Positions 37,596 through 61,315 of a stretch of 64,000 nucleotides of DNA are shown here, in pieces; within the stretch, counting starts at the first letter, position 1, and each line of letters opens with the position of its first letter. The stretch lies in assembly GCF_000719955.1 (NCBI RefSeq), contig NZ_JOII01000029.1:14063-78062 (forward strand), read 5' to 3'. Under the pieces are notes generated by a model, which was given only the letters and a program-made list of their open reading frames with translations, was not told the DNA's origin and searched no databases. The stretch comes from Streptomyces albidoflavus. GTDB taxonomy: Bacteria; Actinomycetota; Actinomycetes; Streptomycetales; Streptomycetaceae. The translations under genes were made by a program, and so were the position numbers.

Positions 37596-39020
37596 ATGTG
37601 TGATTCCGTCGATCCGGTCATAGCGCCCAGCGGTACTCTCCTCGGCCTGCTCCAGCGGGGCAGGGGAGACGGCACGCTGCACGCCCTGACCGCCCCCCGT
37701 TCCGAGGCGCTCGCCGCCCTCGACCAGTGCGTCCTGCGCGACCCCCGCCACGACTGGCAGGTGGAGAACCGCTCCCTCTACTACGCCCGGCTCTACCTCG
37801 ACCTGGACGGCTCCCTGGACGCCGTCGAGGCGCACCTCTTCGCGCCCGAGGACCACACCGCCACCGGCGAGGAGCGCACCGGCCTGGCCGTCAGCGTCCT
37901 CGGCCACCTCGCCTCCTACGGGCGCGACGACGCCCTGGCCCTGCTGCGCCGGTACGCCGCGCACGGCGCCAACTGGCGCTGGGCCCTGGACGAACTGGCC
38001 GTACGCGACGACGACGCCGCCCTCGGCGCACTGGCCGCGCCCGTCCTCGCCCGGTTCCCCGCCACCCCCGAGGGGGAGACGGAACTGGCCGCGGCGGCCG
38101 CCGACAGCTACGAGCCGAGGCCCTGGCACCTGTGGGCCGAGGACCCCGACCCGGCGATCGGCCCCCGCGTCCGGGCCGCCCTGGAGCGGACCTCCTTCGG
38201 CCTGTGGCAACGCCAGCTCGCCACCCCCGACCGCCCCCAGTGGAGCGTCGACGGGGTCCTGACCTGGGCCCAGGAGGGCCACGACCGGGGCAACGACCGC
38301 CATGTGCCGGCCGCCCGGTGCCTGGCCACCGTCGCCACCGCCACCGACCGCCCGGCGCTGCTCGCCGCCGCCCGCGGCGGGCTGGACGGCGCCCGCGCCG
38401 CCGCCCTCAGCCACCTCGCCCGCAGCGGCGACCCGGCGGCGCTCGACCTCATCGAGGCCGCCGTCGCCGACGGGGCGCCCGTGGTCCGGGAGGCGGCGCT
38501 CGAGTCGCTGGGCCGGATGGACGGCACCCCCGTCCTGGTCCGCGCCCGTGGCTGGGCACGCCGCCCCGACGCCCTCGGCGCCGCCGCCGGACAACTCCTC
38601 GCCTGCCGGGGCTCGGCCGACGACGGCCCCCTGGTCCTGGCCGCCCTCCGCGAGGCGGTGCGCGGCACCGGCCCCGACGGGCCCGCCCTGTGGAGCCTGG
38701 TGGACGGCGCGGGACGCCTCGGCATCGCGCAGGCCGCCCCGGTTTTGCGCCACCTCTACCGCGAGACCGCCTCCTCCCACCTGCGCGGCCGCACCGCCCA
38801 GGCACTCGCCGCCACCGACGCCACCTTCGCCCGTGGCTTCGCCGTCGAATGCCTCTGGGACTGCGAGGAGACCACCCGCGAGGTCGGCGCCCGCCACGCC
38901 GCCACCGGCGACCAGCGCGTCGTCGGCCGCCTCCGCCGCCTCGCCGCCGACCCGGCCGAGGAGGCCGAGGTACAGACGGCGGTCCGCAGCCGCATCGGCC
39001 CGGACACCGCGGCGATCTGA
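37596..39020 (+). CDS. HEAT-repeat protein
   Basis: This 474-residue protein is made of helical repeats. The N-terminal part reads LGLLQRGRGDGTLHALTAPRSEALAALDQCVLRDPRHDWQVENR. From about residue 250 repeated units of 30-35 residues follow (for example AARGGLDGARAAALSHLARSGDPAALDLIEAAVADGAPVVREAALESLGRM). HEAT proteins are scaffolds for other proteins. It is followed by a strong terminator, so it is a separate unit from the SMC operon despite being adjacent. ATG 37596 has only a weak ribosome site (GTGAGG). No enzymatic motif is seen. Confidence 0.85.
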   Translation: MCDSVDPVIAPSGTLLGLLQRGRGDGTLHALTAPRSEALAALDQCVLRDPRHDWQVENRSLYYARLYLDLDGSLDAVEAHLFAPEDHTATGEERTGLAVSVLGHLASYGRDDALALLRRYAAHGANWRWALDELAVRDDDAALGALAAPVLARFPATPEGETELAAAAADSYEPRPWHLWAEDPDPAIGPRVRAALERTSFGLWQRQLATPDRPQWSVDGVLTWAQEGHDRGNDRHVPAARCLATVATATDRPALLAAARGGLDGARAAALSHLARSGDPAALDLIEAAVADGAPVVREAALESLGRMDGTPVLVRARGWARRPDALGAAAGQLLACRGSADDGPLVLAALREAVRGTGPDGPALWSLVDGAGRLGIAQAAPVLRHLYRETASSHLRGRTAQALAATDATFARGFAVECLWDCEETTREVGARHAATGDQRVVGRLRRLAADPAEEAEVQTAVRSRIGPDTAAI

Positions 39021-39052: not shown

Positions 39053-39178
39053 CGCACGGCGGAAGAGGGCGCCCGCCTCCGGGGACCGTGGTCCGGACGC
39101 GAGAGCGAGGACGGCCGACGGAACGCCCCGGCCCGGCCCCCTCATCGGTGCGTTTCGCCCGATGTCGGAGCAAGGATC

Positions 39179-39184
39179 TAGGCT
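39179..39184 (+). promoter_or_regulatory. -10 box of the SMC-type operon (leaderless start)
   Basis: TAGGCT stands 7 nt before the GTG at 39192. A TTCGCC-like -35 (39154-39159) is about 19 nt further up. Transcription would begin at or next to the start codon. Confidence 0.55.
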
Positions 39185-39191
39185 GTCCCCC

Positions 39192-40727
39192 GTGACTTCG
39201 CCCGCCTCCACGGAACCCGCTCCGTCCCAGCTCAGCGCGGGGCCGCGCCCCGCGCCGGGCCCGGCCGCCGACGAGGGCCTGGCGCGGCGGCTGCGGGCGC
39301 TGGCCTGCACCGCGCCGCTGCACGACCTGGACACGCGTAAGGCCAACCTGGCGGGGGAGTACGCGGGGTACGCGATGGCCGAGGTGGCGCTGGCCGCCAT
39401 CGACCTGGTCACGCTCCACATGGACTTCGACACCGGCGCGGACCACGAGCAGATAGTGGCCAGGCTGCTGCCCCGCATCGCCGCCCAGGCCCCCGGCCGC
39501 CCCGCCGCCGAGCACGAGCGCGTCGCCCGCTGGGTCCTGGAGAACCTCATCAACGTCGGCAGCGTCGACCGCGGTTTCCGCGCCGTCTACGGCACCTTCG
39601 GGCCCGACGGGAGCTACGTCCGCCGGGACTACGACTTCAAACTGGTCGAGGAGGTCCCCGGACGCGGCGGCAGCGTCTACCTCCGCACCACCGACGAGGC
39701 GGTCAACGTCCTGGTCGGCGCCCTCGACACGGACGTCACCAGCGCCCAGATCGCCGCCGAGGTCAAGCTGGAGGTGCTGATCAACCGGGGCCGTCTCGCC
39801 GACGCCCAGCTCGCCGCCGAACAGGCCAGGTACCGCACCGTCCAGTACTCGGAGACACTGCGCCGCGCCCTCGACGCCACCCGGCGCAACGTCCGGGCCG
39901 TCGACTGGCTCGGCGCCGTCCCCGACATGATCGCCGAGGCGCTCGACCACGTGGCCGACCGGTACCGCCACGAGAACGCCATCCTCACCAACATCCGCAA
40001 GGCGCGCGACGAGTCCGAGGACCCCGAGCAGAAACGGCGCGCCGCCGAACTGGTCGACATCGTCAAGGACTGCATCCGCCGCCACACCCAGCTCCAGGCC
40101 AGGCTCCTGGAGGCGGGCCCGCTCTTCCGCGCCGAACAGGACCGCCAGGCGTTCGCCGCCCCCACCGCCCGCACCGGCGTCGACCTCTACGGCCAGCTCC
40201 TCGCCCCCCTTCTGCCGCTCCCTGTCGAGCAGGCGCTGCGCGCCACCGACGCCTGGTTCGCCCACGGCACCGGACTGCGCACCCCGGCCTGTGTCCGCGT
40301 CGGCGACCTGGTCGACCTGCTGCTCACCCCGCCCGTCGAACGCGCCCACCTGGGCGCCGAGATGCCCGAGCCCGACCTGATCGCCACCCCGGACGACAGC
40401 CGCTTCAGCGAGGAGCAGCTCGCCGCCGCCCGCGACCTCCTCGACCTGGAGTGGGACGCGCCCCGCCGCCTCTCCGGCCTGCTCGCCGAGGCCCGCCGCC
40501 GCGACGAGGACCCGTACGGCCTGGCGTACCTGGTGGCCCTCATCGCCGTGCACGCCGCCTCCCCGCCGGTCGGCACCGCCTACCGGCAGGGCGAGCGCCG
40601 GCTGCTGTTCGCCGTGGACGACGGCACCGCACTCGACGACCCGCACTTCGGCGGCGCCGATCTCATCGTCGGCAGCGCCCTGCTCGACGCCGCCGGCATG
40701 GCGGCCGACCGCACGGAGTCCGCGTGA
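39192..40727 (+). CDS. Kleisin-like subunit (MksF/JetA-like) of an SMC-type complex
   Basis: This 511-residue soluble protein has an N-terminal helical and winged-helix part (about 40-160; a beta-hairpin wing in RRDYDFKLVEEVPGRGGSVYLRTTDEAVNVL). A long alpha-helical neck follows (about 165-325; DVTSAQIAAEVKLEVLINRGRLADAQLAAEQARYRTVQYSETLRRAL), then a C-terminal winged-helix-like part (about 400-490). The LTDEA..L...LD.D...-Q...EVKLE.LI.RG....A block is what I recall from MksF/JetA proteins. It would bridge the two heads of the SMC dimer. GTG 39192 is preferred over ATG 39162 because a TAGGCT box lies 7 nt upstream. It is first of three genes in one direction with 80-nt gaps. Confidence 0.75.
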   Translation: MTSPASTEPAPSQLSAGPRPAPGPAADEGLARRLRALACTAPLHDLDTRKANLAGEYAGYAMAEVALAAIDLVTLHMDFDTGADHEQIVARLLPRIAAQAPGRPAAEHERVARWVLENLINVGSVDRGFRAVYGTFGPDGSYVRRDYDFKLVEEVPGRGGSVYLRTTDEAVNVLVGALDTDVTSAQIAAEVKLEVLINRGRLADAQLAAEQARYRTVQYSETLRRALDATRRNVRAVDWLGAVPDMIAEALDHVADRYRHENAILTNIRKARDESEDPEQKRRAAELVDIVKDCIRRHTQLQARLLEAGPLFRAEQDRQAFAAPTARTGVDLYGQLLAPLLPLPVEQALRATDAWFAHGTGLRTPACVRVGDLVDLLLTPPVERAHLGAEMPEPDLIATPDDSRFSEEQLAAARDLLDLEWDAPRRLSGLLAEARRRDEDPYGLAYLVALIAVHAASPPVGTAYRQGERRLLFAVDDGTALDDPHFGGADLIVGSALLDAAGMAADRTESA

Positions 40728-40809
40728 CGGGCGGCCGCCGCACCCAGGCTCTCCCCTCCCCGGCCCCGCACGCCCGCCCGGGCACGTCCCACCACCAGGA
40801 GCACCACCC

Positions 40810-41691
40810 GTGACCGAGCAGACCACCGAGCCCGTACGGGAGGGCGCCGCCACCCCGGCGCCGCACACTCCCGCCGTCACCCCGGCCGACGCCGCCGACG
40901 CCGCCCGGCTGGTCTCCTTCGGCCTCCAGCCCCGGCTCCAGCCCGCCCGGGACGCCGAGTACGGCGAACTGCTGCGGCGGTACCGCGAGGACCCGCCCTT
41001 CGCCCGGCTCGCCGACGCCGTCGCCACCGGCCTCGGGCTGATCGTGCTGGAGGTCTCCGACCGCGCCGGCATGGCCGTCACCGCCGACGAGGACTCCGTC
41101 TTCGCCGTCCGCATGGGCGACTACGCCCGGCGCGCCGCCACCGACTCCGCCGACCGCTTCCTGCACGGCCTGGCCCATCTCGCCCTGGCCGCCATGGCGT
41201 TCCCCCGCCCCGAGGACCTCGCCGACGACGGCTACATCGGCCGCGTCACCGTCAACGGCGTGGACGCCTTCGTCCGCCAGGCCTGCCGCAAGCTGGAGGA
41301 GCGCGCCGAGGAGCAGGGCGACAACACCGACCCCGTCTCGGACGCCCCCGGCCTGGAGGCCGCCTGGCGCGTCTGGGCCCGGCGCAGCTCCACCGGCGCC
41401 ACCAAGGACGCCCGCAGGCTCGCCGGTTCCACCACCGGCATCGTCGGCAAGGCCGCCGCCTTCCTCACCGAGTCCGGCTTCCTCCAGCGCACCGGCGACG
41501 AGTCCGGCGGGACGTACCGCACCACCGCCCGCTACCAGCTCCAGGTCCGCGACCTCGCGGGCGGCGCGGCCATGAGCGAACTCCTCGGCCTCGGCATCGT
41601 CCCCGTCAGCGACGGCACCGCCACCCTGCTCCCGCCCGACGAGGGCGACGACCTCGACCTGGTCGCCGACGCCGGACTGCCCTTCTCCTGA
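40810..41691 (+). CDS. KITE-like subunit (MksE/JetB-like) of an SMC-type complex
   Basis: This 293-residue protein reads as tandem winged-helix domains: FARLADAVATGLGLIVLEVSDRAGMAVTADEDSVFAVRMGDY, a second helical block (FLHGLAHLALAAMAFPRPEDL...VTVNGVDAFVRQACRKLEERAEE) and a C-terminal wing (FLTESGFLQRTGDESGGTYRTTARYQLQVRDL). The size, order and position between a kleisin-like and an SMC-like gene match MukE/MksE/JetB. AGGAG precedes GTG 40810. In the known complexes two KITE subunits bind the kleisin and control DNA entrapment. No membrane or catalytic motif is seen. Confidence 0.75.
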   Translation: MTEQTTEPVREGAATPAPHTPAVTPADAADAARLVSFGLQPRLQPARDAEYGELLRRYREDPPFARLADAVATGLGLIVLEVSDRAGMAVTADEDSVFAVRMGDYARRAATDSADRFLHGLAHLALAAMAFPRPEDLADDGYIGRVTVNGVDAFVRQACRKLEERAEEQGDNTDPVSDAPGLEAAWRVWARRSSTGATKDARRLAGSTTGIVGKAAAFLTESGFLQRTGDESGGTYRTTARYQLQVRDLAGGAAMSELLGLGIVPVSDGTATLLPPDEGDDLDLVADAGLPFS

Positions 41692-41771
41692 CCGGCCGCC
41701 CGCCGCCCCACCGCAAGCCCCGCCCTCCGGCCGCCGCCGGACCGTACCGATCGCAACGAGAGTCCGCCGCC

Positions 41772-44700
41772 ATGTACGAGTTGTCCCGGGTCCGCCTCTA
41801 CTCCATCGGACCCGCAGGCGCCCGGTACGCCGACACCGTCCTGGACCTGCGCGGGGTCGGCAAGGCCGTGCCCAGACCGGCCCCCGCCCAGGCGGAGTTC
41901 TTCGAGGAGGAGCCGGTCGGCCCGCCGCGCAGGCCCGCCCCCGCCGGCGTCCTCTTCCTGGAGAACGGCGGCGGCAAGTCCGTCCTGCTCAAGCTGATCT
42001 TCTCGGTGATGCTCCCCGGCCACCGCAACACGCTCGGAGGCGCCAGCTCCGGCGTGCTCCGCAAGTTCCTCCTCGCCGACGACTGCGGCCATGTCGCCCT
42101 GGAGTGGCAGCACACCCTCACCGGAGAGACCGTCGTCGTCGGCAAGGTCAGCGAGTGGCGCGGCCGCCAGGTCTCCAACGACCCGCGGAAGTTCGCCGAA
42201 GCCTGGTACTCCTTCCGCCCCGGCCCCGGCCTCAGCCTCGACTCGCTGCCCGTCGCCGAGTCCACCACCGTCCCCGCCCCCGTCGAGGGCGCCTCCGGGG
42301 CGCGCGGCCGGCGCCGCACCATGAAGGGGTTCCGCGACGCCCTCACCGACGCCGGGAAGTTCTACCTCCACCTCGACGTGCACTGGGAGGAGACCCACGA
42401 ACGCTGGACCGAGCACCTCGGCGAACTCGGCCTCGACCCCGAACTCTTCCGCTACCAGCGGGAGATGAACGCCGACGAGGGCGAGGCCGCCGGCCTCTTC
42501 GCGGTCAAGAAGGACTCCGACTTCACCGACCTGCTGCTGCGCGCCGTCACCGACACCCGCGACACCGACGGCCTCGCCGACCTCGTCCACGGCTTCGGCC
42601 ACAAACTCGGCCGCCGCGCCGAACTCATCGCCGAACGCGACTTCACCGCCGGCTCCGTCGACCTGCTCGGCCGCATCGTCGAGACCACCGCCGAACGCGA
42701 CCGCAGCCGCGACATCCACGCCGCCGCCGAACGCCGCACCCGCACCCTCGCCCGCAGCCTCTCCCTGCGCGCCCGCCACGAACGCGCCCGCACCGGCGAC
42801 CTCGCCCAGCAGGTCACCACCGCCGCCCACCGCGTCACTGGGGCCGAGGACACCCGCTCCCGGGCTGCCCTGATCGCCGCCGAACTCGCCTACCGGCACG
42901 CCTCGCTCGCCCTCACCGTCGCCGAGAAGGCCGCCGCCGCCCAGCGTCGCGAACTCGCCGACGCCCGCACCCTGCACGCCGCCTGGCAGGCCGCCGAGGC
43001 CGTCCTGCGCCACCGCGCCGCCGCCGACCGCTCCACCCGCGTCGCCGACGCCATCCGCGAGGCCGAACGCGACGCCGCCCCCGCCCTCGCCGCCCGCTCG
43101 AAGGCCGCCACCGCCCTGGTCCGCGCCCTCGACGCCGCCGCCCGGGACGGCGAACGGGTCGCCACCGAACTGGAGGAGCGCGCCGCCCACCTCCAGGACG
43201 AGGGCGAGGCCGCCCACCGCGACGCCACCGCCGCCGCCACCGAGGCCCAGCGCGCCCGCAGCGAGACCGGCCACCTGCGCCAGCGCCTCGCCGAGGTCGA
43301 GCAGGAGACCGAGGAAGCCGTACGGGCCGGCTGGCTGGAGGCCGGCGCCGCCGACAGCGACCCCGCCCGGGCCGCCCTCGCCGCCACCGATGCCGAGCAG
43401 GAGGCGGCCGGCGCCTGGGAGAGCGCCCGCGAACGCGCCCACCGCGCCGCCGACCACGCCAAGGAGTGCGCCGCCGACGAGGCCCGCGCCGACCTCGCCG
43501 CCGCCCGCGCCCACGACGCCGCCGACGCCGCCGCCCGCGCCCACGAGGCCGAACAGCGCACCGCCGCCGCCCTCGCCGCCGAACCCCGGCTCGCCGAACT
43601 CCTCGGCCTGCCCGCGCCCGACAGCGAGGAGGGTCCGCTCACCGCCGCCGAACTCGACCGCTCCGCCGACCGCCTCGCCGCCCTCCTGGACGAGGGCGTC
43701 ACCGCCGCGGAACGCCAGCTCTTCGACCTGCGGACCGCCGCCGCCGACGACACCCGCATCCTCGGCGCCCTCGGCGACGGCGGGCTGCTGCCGCCCGGCC
43801 CCGACGTCCTCGCCACCGTCGAGTACCTCGGCGAACAGGGCATCCCCGCCCTCCCCGGCTGGCGCTACCTCGCCCAGGCCGTCGACCCGGCCGAGCACGC
43901 CGCCGTCCTCGCCGCCCGGCCCGAACTGGTCGACGGCGTCGTCATCACCGACCCCGACACCCACAGCCGGGCCCGCGCCGTCCTCGCCGACGCCGCCCTG
44001 CTGCCCCGCTCCGCCGTCGCCGTCGGCACCTCCGCCGCCCTGCTCGCCCCGGCACCGCGTACGGGCGGTTCCGACGCCGCCGACCAGGGCGTCTTCCTCG
44101 TCCCGCCCAACCCGGCCATGCACGACGAGTACGCCGCCGACGAGGAGCGCCAGGCCCTGCGCGCCCGCGCCGCCGCCCGCGACGAGGAGATCCGGGCGCT
44201 CGCCGCCCGCCTCGCCAAGGACCGCGAACTCGCCGCCCGGCTCACCTCCTGGCGTACCGGCTGCCCGGCGGGCCACCTCACCGAGCTGGGCGCCACCGCG
44301 GACCAGGCCCAGGAGCACGCCGACACCGCCGCCCACACCCTCCAGCAGGCCCGCACCGCCCGCGCCGAGGCCGACGAGGCCGCCGGCGAGGCGGCCCGGG
44401 TCCGCGACGACAGCCAGGAACGCGCCCAGCGGGCCCGGCGCGCCGCCGACGCCCTCGCCGGCCTCGCCCACCGGCTGCGCGAGCGCCCCCGCTGGCAGGC
44501 CGCCCTGCGCGAACTGGCCGAGACCGCCGCCACCAGCGAGGAGCGCGCCCAGACCTGCCTGGACCGGGCCCGCTCCGCCGACGAGGACCGCCGCGCCGCC
44601 CAGCGCGCCGCCGACGACGCCCGCCGCACCGCCCGCGCCCTGCGCGCCGAACGCGCCGAGATCGCCGGTGTCCCCGACGACGCCGAACTCCCCGCCTCCA

Positions 44701-46379
44701 CCGACACCCCGCGCGTCTCGCTGCCCGCCCTGCGCGAGGCGTACCGCTCCGCCTCCCAGCTGTACGAGAAGGTCGGCGTCGGCGCCGACCTCCGGGCCGA
44801 GCAGGCCCGCGCCGAGAGCGACGAGTCGGCGGCCCGCGCCGAACTCGACCGGCTCAGCAACAAGGTCCGCAACCGCGCCGCCCAGCTCCTGGAGGACCCC
44901 GACGGCGCCGACGGGCCCTCCCGCCAGGCCGCCGCCGCCCGCGCCGAGGCGCTCGTCCAGATGCTGGAGACCCGCTCGGCCGCCGCCAGCGAACAGCTCG
45001 GCCGGCTGCGCGGCGAGGCGGAGCGGCACGCCCCCGAGGAGGGCGAGGCCCACACCGAGCTGCCGCCCGAGCAGGTGCCCGCCGATGTCGAGGCGGCCCA
45101 GCGGCTGCTGCGCGCCGCCACCGCCGAACTCGCCGGGCGCACCGACGAACTGGCCGCCGCCCGCGAGGCGCACGGCGAACTCCTCCACGCCCACCGCGCC
45201 GCCGAGGAGGCCACCGCGGGCTTCGAGGAGACCGCCTCCCTCCTGCGCGACCTGCTCCGCGATCCGCAGGACACCCGCGACACCGACGACGAGAGCGGCG
45301 TCCAGGCCCCGGACCAGTACACGGGCAGCCTGGACGAGGCCCGACGCGCCGCCGCCGAGGCCCGCCGCTCCCTGCGCGGCTGCGCCGCCGACCTCTCCGG
45401 CGCCGAGTCGGCCCTCCGCGAGACCAGCGACATCCTGGTCCGGCACGCCAACTCCAGCCGCTACGAGCAGGTCCGCACCCCCGCCCGCGCCCAGATCCGC
45501 GAACTCCCCGCCGCCGCGCTGCCGGAACACGCCGCCAAGTGGGCCGAGGCGTTCGCGCCGAGGCTCCGGGTCCTCACCGACGAACTCGACCAGCTGGAAC
45601 GCAACCGCGACTCGATCGTGGACCGGCTGCGCGGCCTGGTCGAGTCCTCCCTGGCCACCCTCCGCTCCGCCCAGCGGCTCTCCCGGCTGCCCGAGGGGCT
45701 GGGGGAGTGGTCGGGCCAGGAGTTCCTGCGCATCCGCTTCGAGGAGCCCGACCAGACCACCCTGGTGGAGCGGCTCGGCGAGGTCATCGACGAGGCCACC
45801 AGCACCGCCGTCCGCAAGAACGCCGACCTGCGCCGGGACGGCATGTCCCTGCTGCTGCGCGGCGTCCACGCCGCCCTCCAGCCGCGCGGCGTCTCCGTCG
45901 AGATCCTCAAGCCGGACGCCGTGCTGCGCGCGGAGCGCGTCCCCGTCGGCCAGATGGGCGACGTCTTCTCCGGCGGCCAGCTGCTCACCGCCGCCATCGC
46001 CCTCTACTGCACGATGGCCGCCCTGCGCAGCAACGACCGGGGCCGCGACAAGCACCGCCACGCCGGCACGCTCTTCCTCGACAACCCCATCGGCCGCGCC
46101 AACGCCACCTACCTGCTGGAACTCCAGCGTGCCGTCGCCGACGCCCTCGGCGTCCAGCTCCTGTACACCACCGGCCTCTTCGACACGACCGCGCTCGCCG
46201 AGTTCCCCCTGGTCATCCGCCTCCGCAACGACGCCGACCTCCGCGCGGGCCTGAAGTACATCAGCGTCGAGGAACACCTCCGCCCCGGCCTGCCCCAGCA
46301 GGACCCGCAGGAGGAGACGGTGCATGGGGAGATCACGGCCACCCGGATGTACGTCAAGCCGCGGGAGGACGAGGCGTGA
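41772..46379 (+). CDS. SMC-like ATPase (MksB/JetC-like), 1535 residues
   Basis: The largest gene of the window encodes an SMC-type protein. The N-terminal head starts MYELSRVRLYSIGPAG, with Walker A LFLENGGGKSVLL at residues 61-73. Long Ala/Glu/Arg-rich coiled coils (about 270-600 and 780-1260) are split by a globular hinge-like part (about 610-770, with ALPGWRYLAQAVDPAEHAAVL). The C-terminal head has the ABC signature FSGGQ at 1399-1403 and Walker B GTLFLDNPIG with D1437. The residue after this Asp is Asn, where ATPases of this class normally have the catalytic Glu. It should form a dimer and, with the two preceding proteins, a Muk/Mks-type complex. No MksG/JetD nuclease gene follows. Confidence 0.85.
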   Translation: MYELSRVRLYSIGPAGARYADTVLDLRGVGKAVPRPAPAQAEFFEEEPVGPPRRPAPAGVLFLENGGGKSVLLKLIFSVMLPGHRNTLGGASSGVLRKFLLADDCGHVALEWQHTLTGETVVVGKVSEWRGRQVSNDPRKFAEAWYSFRPGPGLSLDSLPVAESTTVPAPVEGASGARGRRRTMKGFRDALTDAGKFYLHLDVHWEETHERWTEHLGELGLDPELFRYQREMNADEGEAAGLFAVKKDSDFTDLLLRAVTDTRDTDGLADLVHGFGHKLGRRAELIAERDFTAGSVDLLGRIVETTAERDRSRDIHAAAERRTRTLARSLSLRARHERARTGDLAQQVTTAAHRVTGAEDTRSRAALIAAELAYRHASLALTVAEKAAAAQRRELADARTLHAAWQAAEAVLRHRAAADRSTRVADAIREAERDAAPALAARSKAATALVRALDAAARDGERVATELEERAAHLQDEGEAAHRDATAAATEAQRARSETGHLRQRLAEVEQETEEAVRAGWLEAGAADSDPARAALAATDAEQEAAGAWESARERAHRAADHAKECAADEARADLAAARAHDAADAAARAHEAEQRTAAALAAEPRLAELLGLPAPDSEEGPLTAAELDRSADRLAALLDEGVTAAERQLFDLRTAAADDTRILGALGDGGLLPPGPDVLATVEYLGEQGIPALPGWRYLAQAVDPAEHAAVLAARPELVDGVVITDPDTHSRARAVLADAALLPRSAVAVGTSAALLAPAPRTGGSDAADQGVFLVPPNPAMHDEYAADEERQALRARAAARDEEIRALAARLAKDRELAARLTSWRTGCPAGHLTELGATADQAQEHADTAAHTLQQARTARAEADEAAGEAARVRDDSQERAQRARRAADALAGLAHRLRERPRWQAALRELAETAATSEERAQTCLDRARSADEDRRAAQRAADDARRTARALRAERAEIAGVPDDAELPASTDTPRVSLPALREAYRSASQLYEKVGVGADLRAEQARAESDESAARAELDRLSNKVRNRAAQLLEDPDGADGPSRQAAAARAEALVQMLETRSAAASEQLGRLRGEAERHAPEEGEAHTELPPEQVPADVEAAQRLLRAATAELAGRTDELAAAREAHGELLHAHRAAEEATAGFEETASLLRDLLRDPQDTRDTDDESGVQAPDQYTGSLDEARRAAAEARRSLRGCAADLSGAESALRETSDILVRHANSSRYEQVRTPARAQIRELPAAALPEHAAKWAEAFAPRLRVLTDELDQLERNRDSIVDRLRGLVESSLATLRSAQRLSRLPEGLGEWSGQEFLRIRFEEPDQTTLVERLGEVIDEATSTAVRKNADLRRDGMSLLLRGVHAALQPRGVSVEILKPDAVLRAERVPVGQMGDVFSGGQLLTAAIALYCTMAALRSNDRGRDKHRHAGTLFLDNPIGRANATYLLELQRAVADALGVQLLYTTGLFDTTALAEFPLVIRLRNDADLRAGLKYISVEEHLRPGLPQQDPQEETVHGEITATRMYVKPREDEA

Positions 46380-48559: not shown

Positions 48560-49049
48560 CAGTCCGTCACTCCCCGCCGCCTTGCAGTCAGCCGACCGGT
48601 GCCGCGTGGAACCGGCCCCGTCTTCAGTCTGGCTGCCCGCCTTCGTCCGCTTTACGCTGCCGCCGCCGAGATCCGGCGGCCGCCGGTCCACGCCGGCGCA
48701 CCCCTCCCGTACCAACTCCGCACACCTCGTCCACGACTTGTACAGAAGGACGCACGGAGTCCCCGGATGATTCCCGACCAGGCGGGCGAGATGTCGGAAC
48801 TGGCCGGGAAGATGTCCGCAATCAGCCGGTCCGGGAGAGGTCCAGTCTGCCTGAGAGGACGCGGGAGGGCGGCCCGAGGGTCACCTGATCGTCGCCGAAC
48901 GGCGGGAACCGGACGCCGATGCCCCGTTCCGGGCCGAAAACCTCCCGGACGTCTCTTCGATCAACCCTGTGTCAGTAGTAGGCTCGCGCCGTTTATTGAC
49001 GCACGGATGTGCACCCCGGACACCATCGGGGGACGGACTGGGGGAGGCC
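48560..49049 (+). promoter_or_regulatory. Promoter region of the conservon (490-bp gap)
   Basis: TAGGCT (48979-48984) with TTCGAT (48956-48961) 17 nt upstream forms a plausible promoter 66 nt before cvnA. A second possible -10, TACAGA, lies at 48740-48745. The G/C-rich remainder has no gene I can support. Confidence 0.5.
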
Positions 49050-51662
49050 ATGCGCTTTCGCGGCAGGACGATCCGGCGGAAGATCGTGGCGTTGCTGCTC
49101 GTGCCGCTGGTCTCCCTCACCGCGATCTGGGGCTTCGCCACGGTGCTGACAGGCCGTGAGGCCGCCGAGATCCTGAAGATCGGCGAGGCCGACGACCGGG
49201 TCGGCCGGCCCGTCGAGGAGGCCGCCCGGGTCCTCCAGGACGAACGGCGCCGCACCCTCGTCCACCTCGCCGACCCGCGTGCCTCGGCCGCCCTCGGTGA
49301 GCTGCGCCGCTCGCGGACCGCCACCGACCAGGCCCTGGCCCGCGTCCGGGCCGGTGCCGAGGACACCGACGCCACCGAAGGGCTCAGCGCCGACTCCCGG
49401 CGGCGGCTCACCGCGCTCCTCGAATCCTTCGAGGGCATCGCCACCCTGCGCCGCTCCGTCGAGGACAACACGGTCACCCGCGCCGCCGCCCTCGACCTCT
49501 ACAACCGCCTCGTCGACCCCTGCTTCGTCTTCCTCACCCACCTGCACACCATCGAGGACGTCGAACTCGACAAGCAGAACCGGGCCCTGGTCTCCCTGGC
49601 CCGCGCCCGCGACCTGCTCTCCCGCGAGGACGCCCTGGTCGCCTCGGCCCTGGTCGGCGAACGCTTCGACAAGGCCGACCTGCGCCAGGTCTCCGACCTC
49701 CTGGCCCAGCGCACCCTCCTCTTCGAGACCAGCCTGCCGCTCCTGCCCGACGACGAGGAAGCCCGCTACGAGCGGTACTGGCAGGGCGCGGAGACCGCGC
49801 CCCTGCGCGACCTGGAGACCTCCGTCGCCGCCTCCCCGCCCGGGCCGCCGCACGGCGTCACCGCCAAGAGCTGGGACACGGCCGCGGGCAAGGTCCTCGA
49901 CGGGCTCGCCGAACGCGGCAGCGCCGCCGCCGACCGCTACGAGGAGCGCGTCCGGCCCGTCGCCGTCGGCATCCTCGTCCGCGCCGCCGCCACCGGGGTC
50001 CTCGGCTTCGCCGCCCTCGTCCTCTCGCTCTACCTCTCGGTACGCATCGGCCGCAGCCTCATCCGCGACCTCTCCCGCCTGCGCCACCAGGCCCACGAGG
50101 CGTCCGGCGTCCGGCTGCCCTCGGTCCAGCGCCGCCTGGCCGCGGGCGAACAGGTCGACGTCGACACCGAGGCCCCCCGGCTGGAGTACGCGAAGAACGA
50201 GATCGGCCAGGTCGGCCAGGCCCTCAACACCCTGCAGCGGGCCGCCGTCGAAGGCGCCGTCAAACAGGCCCAGATGCGGCGCGGCGTCTCCGAGGTCTTC
50301 GTCAACCTCGCCCGCCGCAGCCAGGTCCTCCTGCACAAGCAGCTCACCCTCCTGGACACCATGGAGCGGCGCACCGAGGACTCCGAGGAACTGGCCGACC
50401 TCTTCCGCCTCGACCACCTGACCACCCGTATGCGCCGCCACGCCGAGGGCCTGGTGATCCTCTCCGGCGCCGCGCCCTCCCGGCAGTGGCGCCGCCCGGT
50501 GCAGCTCATGGACGTGGTCCGCGCCTCCGTCGCCGAGGTGGAGGACTACGAGCGGATCGAGGTCCGCCGCCTGCCGAGGATCGCGGTGACCGGCCCCGCC
50601 GTCGCCGACCTCACCCACCTGACGGCGGAACTCCTGGAGAACGCCACGGTCTTCTCGCCCCCGCACACCGCCGTCCAGGTGCACGGCGAGTCCGTCGCCA
50701 ACGGCTTCACCCTGGAGATCCACGACCGGGGCCTGGGCATGGCCCCCGACGTCCTCCTCGACGCCAACCTCCGGCTCGCCGAGACCCCCGACTTCGAACT
50801 CTCCGACACCGACCGGCTCGGCCTCTTCGTGGTCAGCCGCCTCGCCCAGCGCCAGAACATCCGGGTCTCCCTCCAGAAGTCGCCCTACGGGGGTACCACC
50901 GCGGTCGTCTTCATCCCGGACGCCCTGCTCATCGAGACCGACGAGTCCGGCGGCTCCACCGACGGCCGCGGCCTCGCCCTCGACACCGCCGGCACCGGGG
51001 CGCGCGGCCCCGGCCGCCCCGCCCTGGCCCGCATCCCGACCTCCCGGACGCCCGCGCGCCCCCTCCTCCCCGACGGCCCCGTCGAACTGGAGGCCCCGGC
51101 GAACACCCCCGGCGTGGACGACGAGGACTTCCCCGGCGCCCTGCCCGACGACGACAGCGAACCGGGCGTCTTCCGGCCCAGGCGGCCCCTGGCCCCGGCG
51201 GCCGACCCCCGCGACCAGCACCAGCAGGCCCACGACGACCCGGCCGCCGGAGCCAGGCCCGGCGGACCGTCACCCGCGGGCGGGGGCCCGGCGCCGCTGC
51301 CGCGCCGCCGCACCCCGAAGCTGGTCAGCTCGCACGGCCGCACCGTCGCCCACGGCAGGCCCGACGAGCCCGCCCAGGACCAGGAGGAGGGCGGCACCCG
51401 CGACCGGGCCGCCGCGCCGCCCGCGAAGGGGCCCGCCGGCCTGCCGCGCCGGGTCCGGCAGGCCAGCCTCGCCCCGCAGTTGAAGGAGGCCCGCAGGGGC
51501 GCTCCGGACGCCCGCGACCAGGACACCGCCCACGACACCGACCGCGACGCCGACGAGGTCCGCAGCCGCATGGCCTCGCTCCAGCGAGGCTGGCAGCGCG
51601 GCCGCGACGAGAACGCGGGCTCCACAGCACCACGAACGACACCCGAGGGAGACGGTCGATGA
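49050..51662 (+). CDS. cvnA: Conservon sensor histidine-kinase-like protein CvnA (nitrate-sensing-type domain)
   Basis: This 870-residue membrane protein begins MRFRGRTIRRKIVALLLVPLVSLTAIWGF (helix 1, residues 10-30). An extracytoplasmic NIT-like domain of all-alpha type follows (about 40-305), a second helix (about 308-330; AATGVLGFAALVLSLYLSV), a HAMP-like segment and an ATPase domain (about 440-650). The ATPase has LTAELLENATVFSPPHTAV (N-box) and DRGLGMA (G-box). The last 220 residues are Pro/Arg-rich and probably disordered. The histidine acceptor is not obvious, as in other conservon kinases. GGGGAGG supports ATG 49050. First of four conservon genes; CvnB starts with a 4-nt ATGA overlap. 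Confidence 0.9.
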   Translation: MRFRGRTIRRKIVALLLVPLVSLTAIWGFATVLTGREAAEILKIGEADDRVGRPVEEAARVLQDERRRTLVHLADPRASAALGELRRSRTATDQALARVRAGAEDTDATEGLSADSRRRLTALLESFEGIATLRRSVEDNTVTRAAALDLYNRLVDPCFVFLTHLHTIEDVELDKQNRALVSLARARDLLSREDALVASALVGERFDKADLRQVSDLLAQRTLLFETSLPLLPDDEEARYERYWQGAETAPLRDLETSVAASPPGPPHGVTAKSWDTAAGKVLDGLAERGSAAADRYEERVRPVAVGILVRAAATGVLGFAALVLSLYLSVRIGRSLIRDLSRLRHQAHEASGVRLPSVQRRLAAGEQVDVDTEAPRLEYAKNEIGQVGQALNTLQRAAVEGAVKQAQMRRGVSEVFVNLARRSQVLLHKQLTLLDTMERRTEDSEELADLFRLDHLTTRMRRHAEGLVILSGAAPSRQWRRPVQLMDVVRASVAEVEDYERIEVRRLPRIAVTGPAVADLTHLTAELLENATVFSPPHTAVQVHGESVANGFTLEIHDRGLGMAPDVLLDANLRLAETPDFELSDTDRLGLFVVSRLAQRQNIRVSLQKSPYGGTTAVVFIPDALLIETDESGGSTDGRGLALDTAGTGARGPGRPALARIPTSRTPARPLLPDGPVELEAPANTPGVDDEDFPGALPDDDSEPGVFRPRRPLAPAADPRDQHQQAHDDPAAGARPGGPSPAGGGPAPLPRRRTPKLVSSHGRTVAHGRPDEPAQDQEEGGTRDRAAAPPAKGPAGLPRRVRQASLAPQLKEARRGAPDARDQDTAHDTDRDADEVRSRMASLQRGWQRGRDENAGSTAPRTTPEGDGR

Positions 51663-52090
51663 CCGCATCGAAGACCGCCGCGCACACCACCGGTTCCGGG
51701 GAGCTGAACTGGCTCCTCGACGACCTGGTCAACAGGGTCGCCGGCATCCGCAAGGTCCTGGTCCTGTCCGGCGACGGACTGCCCACCGGGGTCTCCCAGG
51801 ACCTCACCCGCGAGGACAGCGAACACCTGGCCGCCGTCGCCTCCGGCTTCCACAGCCTCGCCAAGGGCGTCGGCCGGCACTTCGACGCCGGACGCGTCCG
51901 GCAGACCGTCGTCGAGCTCGACGAGGCGTTCCTCTTCGTCACCGCCGCGGGCGACGGCAGCTGTCTCGCCGTCCTCGCCGACTCTGACTCCGACGTGGGG
52001 CTCGTGGCGTACGAGATGACGCTGCTGGTCAAGCGGGTCGGCGTGCATCTGGGCAGCGCGCCGCGCACGGATCTGCCCGCGGGCGGGTAG
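51659..52090 (+). CDS. cvnB: Conservon roadblock/LC7 protein CvnB
   Basis: This 143-residue roadblock/LC7 domain protein contains LNWLLDDLVNRVAGIRKVLVLSGDGLPTGVS and DEAFLFVTAAGDGSCLAVLADSDSDVGLVAYEMTLLVKRVG. In bacterial conservons it regulates the small GTPase CvnD, much like MglB for MglA. ATGA overlaps the cvnA stop. The order A-B-C-D with short gaps is the standard conservon operon. Confidence 0.95.
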   Translation: MTASKTAAHTTGSGELNWLLDDLVNRVAGIRKVLVLSGDGLPTGVSQDLTREDSEHLAAVASGFHSLAKGVGRHFDAGRVRQTVVELDEAFLFVTAAGDGSCLAVLADSDSDVGLVAYEMTLLVKRVGVHLGSAPRTDLPAGG

Positions 52091-52100
52091 TGAACCAGGC

Positions 52101-52496
52101 ATGAGCGAAGACGGGAACGGGGCGCACCGCTGGTTCGACGACGACGCCGGACCGGTGGTCCGCCCGTACGCCATGACGCGGGGCCGGACCACCGGCACCG
52201 GTCAGCACCGCCTGGACCTCATCGCGGTCGTCGTCGCGGAGCCGCGCGCCGACGGCCCGGAGGAGAACCGCACGCTGTCGCCGGAACACGTCGACATCGT
52301 CGTGCTGTGCCGCGAGGCACCCCAGTCCGTGGCGGAACTCGCCGCCGAGCTGGACCTGCCGGTCGGCGTCGTCCGGGTCCTGATCGGCGACCTCGTGGAG
52401 GAGGAGTTCGTGCACGTGAACCGTCCGGTGCCGCCGGCCGAGCTGCCCGACGAAAGCATTCTGCGCGAGGTGATCAGCGGGCTGCGCGCCCTCTGA
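52101..52496 (+). CDS. cvnC: Conservon DUF742 protein CvnC
   Basis: This 131-residue DUF742 protein starts MSEDGNGAHRWFDDDAGPVVRPYAMTRGRT and carries LDLIAVVV, the CREAPQSVAELAAELDLPVGVVRVLIGDL winged-helix-like block and VHVNRPV near the end. It is thought to bridge the conservon components. It lies 10 nt after cvnB. Confidence 0.95.
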   Translation: MSEDGNGAHRWFDDDAGPVVRPYAMTRGRTTGTGQHRLDLIAVVVAEPRADGPEENRTLSPEHVDIVVLCREAPQSVAELAAELDLPVGVVRVLIGDLVEEEFVHVNRPVPPAELPDESILREVISGLRAL

Positions 52497-52550
52497 CCGC
52501 CCGTCGGCACCCACCCCCCGAGAGATCAGCGAAGCAGGAGACGAGACTCC

Positions 52551-53156
52551 ATGAAGTTCGGGCGCTCACCGCGGGAGAAGGCTCCCGTCGAGCCGGTCAC
52601 CCTGAAGATCCTGGTGGCCGGGGGATTCGGCGTCGGCAAGACCACCCTGGTGGCCGCGGTCAGCGAGATCAAGCCGCTCAGGACCGAGGAGACGCTGAGC
52701 GAGGCCGGGCGCCCGGTGGACGACACCGGCGGCGTGGAGGCCAAGCACACCACCACCGTCGCCATGGACTTCGGCCGGATCACCCTCCGCGACGACCTCA
52801 CGCTCTACCTCTTCGGCACCCCCGGCCAGGACCGGTTCTGGTTCCTCTGGGACGAACTGGCCCAGGGCGCCCTCGGCGCCGTCGTCCTCGCCGACACCCG
52901 CCGCCTGGAGGACTGCTTCGCCGCCGTCGACTACTTCGAGCGCCGCGGCATCCCGTTCGTCGTCGGCGTGAACTGCTTCGACGACGCCGACCACTACCCG
53001 CCCGAGGACATCCGCACCGCCCTCGACCTCGACCCCGGCGTCCCCGTGGTCCTCTGCGACGCCCGCGAGCGCGCCTCCGCCAAGGAGGTCCTCATCGGGG
53101 TCGTCGAACACGCCATGGCCCGCGCCGCCGCACCCCGCGAGAGCGCCCCGCACTGA
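52551..53156 (+). CDS. cvnD: Conservon small GTPase-like protein CvnD
   Basis: This 201-residue protein is a Ras-like ATP/GTP-binding protein. Walker A GGFGVGKT lies at residues 24-31, GTPGQDRFWFLWDEL is the G3-like loop, and GVNCFDDADHY is the position of the NKxD base-recognition motif, here degenerate (NCFD). It cycles between states under control of CvnB. AGGAG precedes ATG 52551. Last gene of the conservon; a 52-nt terminator follows. Confidence 0.95.
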   Translation: MKFGRSPREKAPVEPVTLKILVAGGFGVGKTTLVAAVSEIKPLRTEETLSEAGRPVDDTGGVEAKHTTTVAMDFGRITLRDDLTLYLFGTPGQDRFWFLWDELAQGALGAVVLADTRRLEDCFAAVDYFERRGIPFVVGVNCFDDADHYPPEDIRTALDLDPGVPVVLCDARERASAKEVLIGVVEHAMARAAAPRESAPH

Positions 53157-60354: not shown

Positions 60355-60381
60355 GACGCCACTGTCAGTGACGGTGGTTAC

Positions 60382-60414
60382 GGTGAGTGAGTAAGTCGGT
60401 ACTGCTCACTCACC
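60382..60414 (+). promoter_or_regulatory. 10-bp inverted repeat upstream of hypothetical gene 60428
   Basis: GGTGAGTGAG (60382-60391) and CTCACTCACC (60405-60414) form a perfect inverted repeat with a 13-nt centre, TAAGTCGGTACTG. It ends 13 nt before the start codon and overlaps the likely promoter. An operator or a translation-blocking hairpin are both possible. Confidence 0.6.
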
Positions 60415-60427
60415 AGGGGGACCCTGC

Positions 60428-61315
60428 ATGACCACGACCCACCCGACCCCGCGCCAGCTGCTGCGCCGCGAGATCGCCGGCACCCTCGGCCTGCTCGCCT
60501 CCGCCGACGACCTCGCGGCCATGCGCCGCTACCGCACCTTCCTCTTCGAGGACCATCGCACCTACCTCCAGCAGGCCGAGGCACTGCTCCGCTCCCTCGC
60601 GGCCCAGGGCCGCACCACCTCCGTCGTCCTCTTCGACCCTGCCGAGTTCGCCCGCTTCTGCGCCCAGGAGGGCCTGGACCCGGACACGACCGACAGCAGG
60701 GCCCGGTACACGGCGGAGGCCGCCGCCCTCGGCCCCTGCATCCTCCACGAGGGCGAACCCCTCCCCGAGCTGCTCGGGAGCCTGGTCGCCGAATCCCTCC
60801 GCCAGGCCACCTGGGAGTACGCGAGCGACCTCCTGGACGAGCTGGGCGACTGCCCGCGCTGCGCCACCCCGCTCGCCCACCACGCCCAGCGCCGGGCCGC
60901 GCACCTCCTGGGCGCCGCCCTCGACACCACCGCCCCCGGCCACCACCAGCTCGTCTGCTCCCTGACCACCGCGGGCCGCACCCTGCTCGCCGCCCTGCAC
61001 GCCGACACCCGCACCGCCGGCGAAGCCCTGCTCGACCACGAGGAGACCGTCGACTTCACCACCCTGCTCGCCTGCGCCCTCGCCCTGCCCGCCCCCGCCG
61101 GACTCGTCATGCGCAGCAGGGTGGAGGGAGAGCCCGAAGAGGTCCGCGGCTGGCGCCTCAGGGCGGGCCGCGCCCAGCCACTGACCGCCGCCGAGGTCTT
61201 CGACGCCTACTGCACCGACCCCGTCACCGGCGAACCGGTCGCTCCCGAACCGGGCGTCGAGTACCGCGCGGGCACCCCGCTCGACGATGACCACGGCCCG
61301 GACACCTGCCACTGA
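60428..61315 (+). CDS. Hypothetical protein of 295 residues
   Basis: This soluble protein has a helical N-terminus (PTPRQLLRREIAGTLGLLASADDLAAMRRYRTFLFEDHRTYLQQAEALLRSL), a central LDELGDCPRCATPLAHHAQRR segment (two Cys plus His that could bind zinc) and an acidic C-terminus. I recognise no domain and cannot assign a function. AGGGGGACC lies just before ATG 60428. The inverted repeat directly upstream suggests specific regulation. Convergent to ptsI with a perfect palindromic terminator between. Confidence 0.75.
   Translation: MTTTHPTPRQLLRREIAGTLGLLASADDLAAMRRYRTFLFEDHRTYLQQAEALLRSLAAQGRTTSVVLFDPAEFARFCAQEGLDPDTTDSRARYTAEAAALGPCILHEGEPLPELLGSLVAESLRQATWEYASDLLDELGDCPRCATPLAHHAQRRAAHLLGAALDTTAPGHHQLVCSLTTAGRTLLAALHADTRTAGEALLDHEETVDFTTLLACALALPAPAGLVMRSRVEGEPEEVRGWRLRAGRAQPLTAAEVFDAYCTDPVTGEPVAPEPGVEYRAGTPLDDDHGPDTCH

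Follow-up and report, generated by a model that had tools for sequence, protein, structure and literature searches.

A nuclease-less JetABC operon of the Wadjet III lineage in the core genome of Streptomyces

The JetABC locus and its conservation

In a stretch of 64,000 nucleotides from Streptomyces albidoflavus (assembly GCF_000719955.1, contig NZ_JOII01000029.1, positions 14,063 to 78,062; 74.6% G+C), referred to here as the window, three adjacent genes on the forward strand encode a MukF-like kleisin, a MukE-like KITE protein with tandem winged helices and a structural maintenance of chromosomes (SMC) ATPase. These genes, jetA (39192..40727, 511 aa, GTG start), jetB (40810..41691, 293 aa) and jetC (41772..46379, 1535 aa), are all open and show a strong coding bias, with third-position G+C of 0.95, 0.97 and 0.96. 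Counted from its first ATG, the jetA open reading frame (ORF) spans 39162-40727 (521 aa); we prefer the GTG at 39192 because the ATG overlaps the conserved promoter described below. As in Wadjet type III, the gene order is A-B-C and the PADLOC JetA3 and JetC3 profiles match: PDLC00567 at 622 bits over residues 34-518 of the 521-aa ORF, and PDLC00588 at 1405 bits over residues 1-1534 of JetC. From its length and the coverage of this profile, JetC would comprise a hinge and a coiled-coil rod. JetB matches no PADLOC profile, and the JetB proteins of two JetD-bearing operons also reach just 12-17 bits; with one of these two, from a JetD-bearing Wadjet III operon, the JetB of the window shares 49% identity. 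The top structure matches of the predicted JetB fold are MukE and JetABC entries, while those of the predicted JetA fold are MukBEF and MukE-MukF entries, so that the two models resemble Escherichia coli MukBEF best or near best. By sequence, the JetA profile found only designed TIM barrels in the PDB, NCBIfam gave a single match for the three proteins (E 0.11), and JetC, in this respect different from MukBEF, matched no PDB chain at E 0.1. The trio is firmly identified as the kleisin, KITE and SMC subunits of the Wadjet type III lineage, which bears out the initial annotation, made from the letters of the window, of three same-strand genes of the Jet or Mks kind.

The same annotation had stated that the fourth Wadjet component, the TOPRIM nuclease JetD, was missing from both sides of the operon and had proposed a search of the whole genome. 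No JetD_C (PF09983) match exists in the source genome; since it detects type III poorly (E 0.14 to 2.8e-6 for three JetD3 proteins), the JetD3 profile PDLC00594 was also used, and a first-look search with it gave no candidates. A streptomycete JetD profile, built from 11 JetD3 sequences, gave no score above 7.9 bits either in the window or in 23 further core loci, and JetD was absent from all 23 core JetABC loci read (one more locus, L020, was set aside as it lacks jetB and jetC). The absence of JetD from the core complex is therefore firm, and the reading of an SMC, kleisin and KITE trio without its nuclease is supported. Neither result named beforehand as fatal to this reading was obtained, since the models of the first two proteins do resemble a kleisin and a KITE protein and the genome searches gave no JetD3 elsewhere. 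Three results go beyond that annotation, namely the core status of the operon across the family, nuclease-less copies in other families and a promoter of the DNA-damage type.

The operon is near-universal in its genus and family. JetA matched in 147 of 150 Streptomyces genomes, more weakly in one of them (E 3.7e-63), and the three genomes without a match are assemblies of 82%, 98% and 78% completeness. JetB matched in 120 of 121 Streptomycetaceae genomes, covering 17/17 genera; in one of these positive genomes, G182, the sole system is an accessory one with JetD (L083). The JetA of the window is 98% identical to a Streptomyces diastaticus protein. JetA is 83-100% identical in 37/37 Streptomyces genomes (its own genome counted), and the trio is thus not a chance arrangement. 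This locus is part of the core genome and not of a genomic island. The ATPase motifs of JetC are intact in the window (Walker A ENGGGKS, signature FSGGQ, Walker B LFLDNP), and in an alignment of 69 JetC proteins all three are kept in the nuclease-less rows wherever these are covered (Walker A falls within a gap in four of them), suggesting that JetABC is still a working motor. Ratios of nonsynonymous to synonymous substitution (dN/dS, NG86 method) were 0.13-0.30 for JetA (10 pairs), 0.22-0.42 for JetB, 0.26-0.70 for JetC and 0.39-0.54 for the HEAT-repeat neighbour (4 pairs), with synonymous sites that are biased at such G+C; these values indicate that JetA evolves under constraint.

Four-gene Wadjet III systems also occur in Streptomyces, as separate, rarer and divergent copies equipped with JetD. 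At 18/21 accessory loci (17/20 plus L083) JetD lies directly behind JetC, with 242-484 bits; two of the other three are ended by contig ends and one consists of JetA only. Eleven of the 18 come from genomes that supplied rows of the profile, and their scores are not independent, leaving seven that are. Strong JetD3 matches occur in 11/150 Streptomyces genomes, there behind a second JetC and away from the core JetA, whereas at E 1e-3 the count rises to 21/150, ten of them at just 20-32 bits. Since the strong matches are confined to these 11 genomes and each follows its own second JetC, JetD acting in trans on the core complex is unlikely in general. Between accessory and core copies in the same taxa, identity is 26-57% for JetA and 32-58% for JetB, and for JetC it is 37% over the full length in one pair. 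The core complex differs from Wadjet III in lacking JetD and in its core chromosomal location, and also in the jetB-jetC gap, which is 48-188 nt in eight Streptomycetaceae core loci versus -8 to 28 nt where JetD is present (16 loci); the gap is also tight in the measured Frankiaceae and in most Pseudonocardiaceae nuclease-less loci. It has been reported that Wadjet systems of Streptomyces are enriched towards chromosome ends (PMC10482375). Surveys that require complete systems would be expected to see the accessory copies only.

Origin of the nuclease-less copies

Streptomycetaceae core copies form one clade in trees of JetA (support 100/99, 45 rows) and JetC (SH-aLRT support 100, 39 rows), and the midpoint root has rows with JetD on either side. 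Similar orphan operons, which have JetABC and no JetD, are found in two other families. In Frankiaceae, JetA matched in 19/35 genomes, and JetD was absent from 18 of 20 loci fetched, the DNA behind JetC being visible in 11 of those 18. In Pseudonocardiaceae, nuclease-less JetABC was found in 11 Amycolatopsis, 3 Haloechinothrix and 2 Actinophytocola-labelled loci, with JetD in none. When 20 orphan-bearing genomes (16 Pseudonocardiaceae and 4 Frankiaceae) were searched for JetD3 elsewhere, two strong matches (Amycolatopsis) and two weak ones (Frankiaceae) were obtained, and none at E 1e-3 in the other 16. In two Haloechinothrix loci and one metagenome-assembled genome, the orphan operon was seen by eye to lie right after whiA, in the order uvrC-rapZ-yvcK-whiA.

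A tree of 64 rows joined the Streptomycetaceae and Frankiaceae orphans (SH-aLRT 91), whereas in a 44-row JetA tree that included Pseudonocardiaceae this join was not resolved and the presence of JetD needed three changes. Narrower trees allowed a single loss of JetD; the wider 44-row tree rejects a single clade of all orphans (approximately unbiased test, AU p 0.00135). JetD was therefore probably lost more than once, that is, at least twice, on trees in which long branches are in play and whose rows were chosen by hand from larger sets; regain of JetD in place of loss could also account for the pattern.

A damage-type promoter and the proposed function

Directly upstream of jetA lies a PafBC-type promoter, TGTCGG-N10-TAGGCT (39163..39184, forward strand), which ends 7 nt before the GTG and would give a leaderless transcript. 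An alignment of 27 Streptomyces upstream regions (34 given) shows a conserved box and a -10 element seven bases before the GTG, and this arrangement is that of the RecA-independent damage promoter. The mycobacterial PafBC motif is given as TGTCGG-N10-TA-N3-T, with TGTCAG and TGTCAC as further forms (PMC8151990), and the jetA promoter of the window fits it exactly. We searched for the exact pattern TGTCRG-N10-TANNNT. Both strands of the window hold only two matches, of which the jetA site is one. It was present upstream of JetA in 25/25 readable Streptomyces loci, the window included (31 given, 6 without an anchor), in 17/24 core loci of the family and in 11/13 named family loci, these sets overlapping in some genomes, while a background of random 300-nt stretches had it in 115/30000. 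The other match in the window (60363-60384, forward strand) lies 43 nt before a 295-aa ORF (60428-61315) without a Pfam match at E 0.01.

A longer form of the box was also followed. In a gene-by-gene control with a simple gene caller, 11/288 upstream regions fitted it at 8 or 9 of 9 positions, and 10 of these 11 belonged to JetA. Across four Streptomycetaceae genomes (G000, G006, G138 and G185) the longer motif has 9, 34, 24 and 26 sites, and the reversed pattern 0, 0, 0 and 1; the JetA site of the window fits it at 7 of 9 only and so is outside the 9 sites of its genome. Of these 93 sites 30 were read, two of which were not located, and ten proteins were checked against Pfam. Products of the genes recognised behind the longer motif include JetA itself, UvrD (two), MgsA/RarA, UvrB, a WGR protein, RecA, UDG, an O6-methylguanine methyltransferase and DNA polymerase III alpha. 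The source genome encodes PafC (HTH_PafC, 108 bits, contig 27), and PafBC homologues are reported to be encoded by Streptomyces (PMC9380542). Taken together, these motifs make damage control of jetABC in Streptomyces likely. More generally, there appears to be a class of PafBC-type promoters in Streptomycetaceae, with 9-34 sites per genome and recA and uvrB among the genes concerned, which could constitute a LexA-independent regulon.

The exact motif is also found upstream of JetA in nine accessory Wadjet III loci (JetD being out of view in one, L103), and part of the JetD-bearing Wadjet III defence may thus be switched on by DNA damage.

With moderate confidence, we propose that JetABC is a Wadjet-derived complex, similar to MukBEF and MksBEF, that has been domesticated for the host chromosome and is probably induced by damage. 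JetD would have been lost from a Wadjet III JetABC before the radiation of the Streptomycetaceae, after which the trio became fixed in the chromosome. By analogy with its family, JetABC would act on the host chromosome as a DNA-entrapping, loop-extruding motor. Upon damage, single-stranded DNA would lead PafBC to redirect RNA polymerase to the jetA promoter, and the JetABC made in this way might compact damaged sister chromosomes or hold them together, allowing recombination repair and segregation to be completed. Such a role in repair or segregation is suggested by the putative regulation and by MksBEF of Pseudomonas aeruginosa, a precedent for a chromosomal role (PMC10586767), from which the core trio differs by its Wadjet III sequence lineage, its actinobacterial hosts and its damage-type promoter. 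With MukBEF and MksBEF the trio shares a MukF-type kleisin fold, a MukE-type tandem winged-helix KITE and the lack of a JetD nuclease; as a difference from the MukBEF case, Streptomyces also uses Smc (PMC13121528). The corynebacterial and mycobacterial MksBEFG and EptABCD systems are likewise actinobacterial SMC-kleisin-KITE operons but include the nuclease MksG/JetD, and the JetD of Corynebacterium has been called type I (PMC10586767).

Several observations weigh against this proposal. The predicted structures cover JetA and JetB only, with JetC assigned by sequence; no structure match of JetB has a Foldseek E below 0.001, and confidence in the JetA model is modest (predicted local distance difference test score 66.5, predicted template modelling score 0.47). 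JetB is in pieces in three genomes, and at the locus set aside above (L020, genome G012) the 19 kb examined contain JetA without JetB or JetC, which may be a loss that happened in nature. Of the Streptomycetaceae core loci, 7/24 and 2/13 lack the exact motif. Outside the family it was found in 4/33 Frankiaceae loci (two genomes, each present twice) and missing from 29, and it was found in 2/11 Amycolatopsis and 0/5 other Pseudonocardiaceae loci, being missing from 14 of these 16 orphans; damage control is therefore not general to the nuclease-less copies. As 10 of 26 loci in the JetD group (which includes three where JetD was not seen) share the motif, the promoter alone is no mark of a role outside defence. 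Many sites of the longer motif precede genes without a known repair role. A first motif search published by others had suggested that S. venezuelae does not conserve the PafBC motif of mycobacteria (PMC9380542); our motif counts in the four family genomes point in the opposite direction.

Three other explanations have to be weighed. JetABC might still defend the cell without cutting, by sensing small circular DNA through its total extrusion and then silencing or sequestering it, much as Smc5/6 compacts circular DNA and prevents viral gene expression (PMC10586767). The lineage and the intact ATPase, which are common to JetD-bearing Wadjet III, would fit such a function, as would the damage promoter in part of the JetD group. 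However, the near-universal presence, recurring neighbours and slow evolution of the core operon are unlike the patchy JetD copies, and small circular plasmids of high copy number, pIJ101 for example, are hosted by Streptomyces; we therefore regard non-cutting defence as unlikely. A machine for defence or repair that is split, with JetABC working together with a nuclease from another locus, or one not related to JetD, would go against our proposal and appears less probable still. It is what the dependence of the four-gene relatives on JetD would lead one to expect, and the weak JetD3-profile matches elsewhere in 10/150 Streptomyces genomes could be read in its favour, but no JetD was found in the source genome or, at E 1e-3, in 16/20 of the genomes with orphans in Frankiaceae and Pseudonocardiaceae, and behind JetC no single gene takes its place in the loci read, where the following gene varies by genus.

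The least probable of the three, in our judgement, is a condensin for sporulation or housekeeping in general, ranking after Smc-ScpAB and without a special link to DNA damage, whose conserved box is an ordinary strong promoter. The hosts are mycelial actinobacteria, and both the position after whiA in some orphans and the missing motif in most orphans outside the Streptomycetaceae agree with it. Against this stand the exact published motif in every readable Streptomyces locus and the longer form that marks recA, uvrB and other repair genes. 

Our proposal of a domesticated, probably damage-induced complex can be extended, more tentatively, to a second, hitherto unrecognised condensin of Streptomyces, in which a Wadjet SMC complex stripped of its nuclease would hold or compact damaged chromosomes under a PafBC-type promoter; the same disarming would have occurred independently in Pseudonocardiaceae and perhaps in Frankiaceae.

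An origin of MukBEF and MksBEF from Wadjet-type immunity has been called tempting to speculate (PMC10586767). In Streptomyces one SMC lineage has members both with and without the nuclease, the latter in the core genome, and such a conversion is directly testable there by gene swaps. If our proposal is true, the conversion of SMC complexes from immunity to housekeeping is recurrent and testable, and what is known of the chromosomes of the main antibiotic producers gains a further SMC complex together with a damage regulon independent of LexA, a kind of response whose existence in Streptomyces was left open (PMC9380542). We found no published description of the nuclease-less Streptomyces JetABC locus in a literature search that covered mostly open-access articles.

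Genes around the operon

Upstream of jetA, a 474-aa HEAT-repeat protein is encoded at 37596..39020 on the forward strand (HEAT_2 at 26.2 bits, slightly below the 27.7-bit cut-off). It is the upstream neighbour in many core loci, not in all: the gene is within the stretch read in 16/23 further core loci, and directly adjoins jetA in the window and in five others, all deep-branching, the remaining HEAT-bearing loci having 5-oxoprolinase-type genes (named by eye) in between. Searching 20 Frankiaceae loci by tblastn gave no HEAT gene, and none was seen by eye in the six Pseudonocardiaceae loci inspected. Considered as a replacement subunit, it was rejected on this distribution and on its patchy adjacency to jetA. 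A MOSC gene (50 bits) starts 26 nt after jetC, and was rejected as a fourth operon gene, there being no MOSC match at 1e-8 in any of 29 other loci. Among the neighbours named by the initial annotation, the HEAT and MOSC labels hold, whereas the deoxyribosyltransferase-like gene has only a DUF7768 match below that profile's cut-off. Further downstream, a conservon-type operon (CvnA-D-like, by eye) occupies 48969-53156 of the window, and a CvnA-like gene is also present in 12/23 further core loci.

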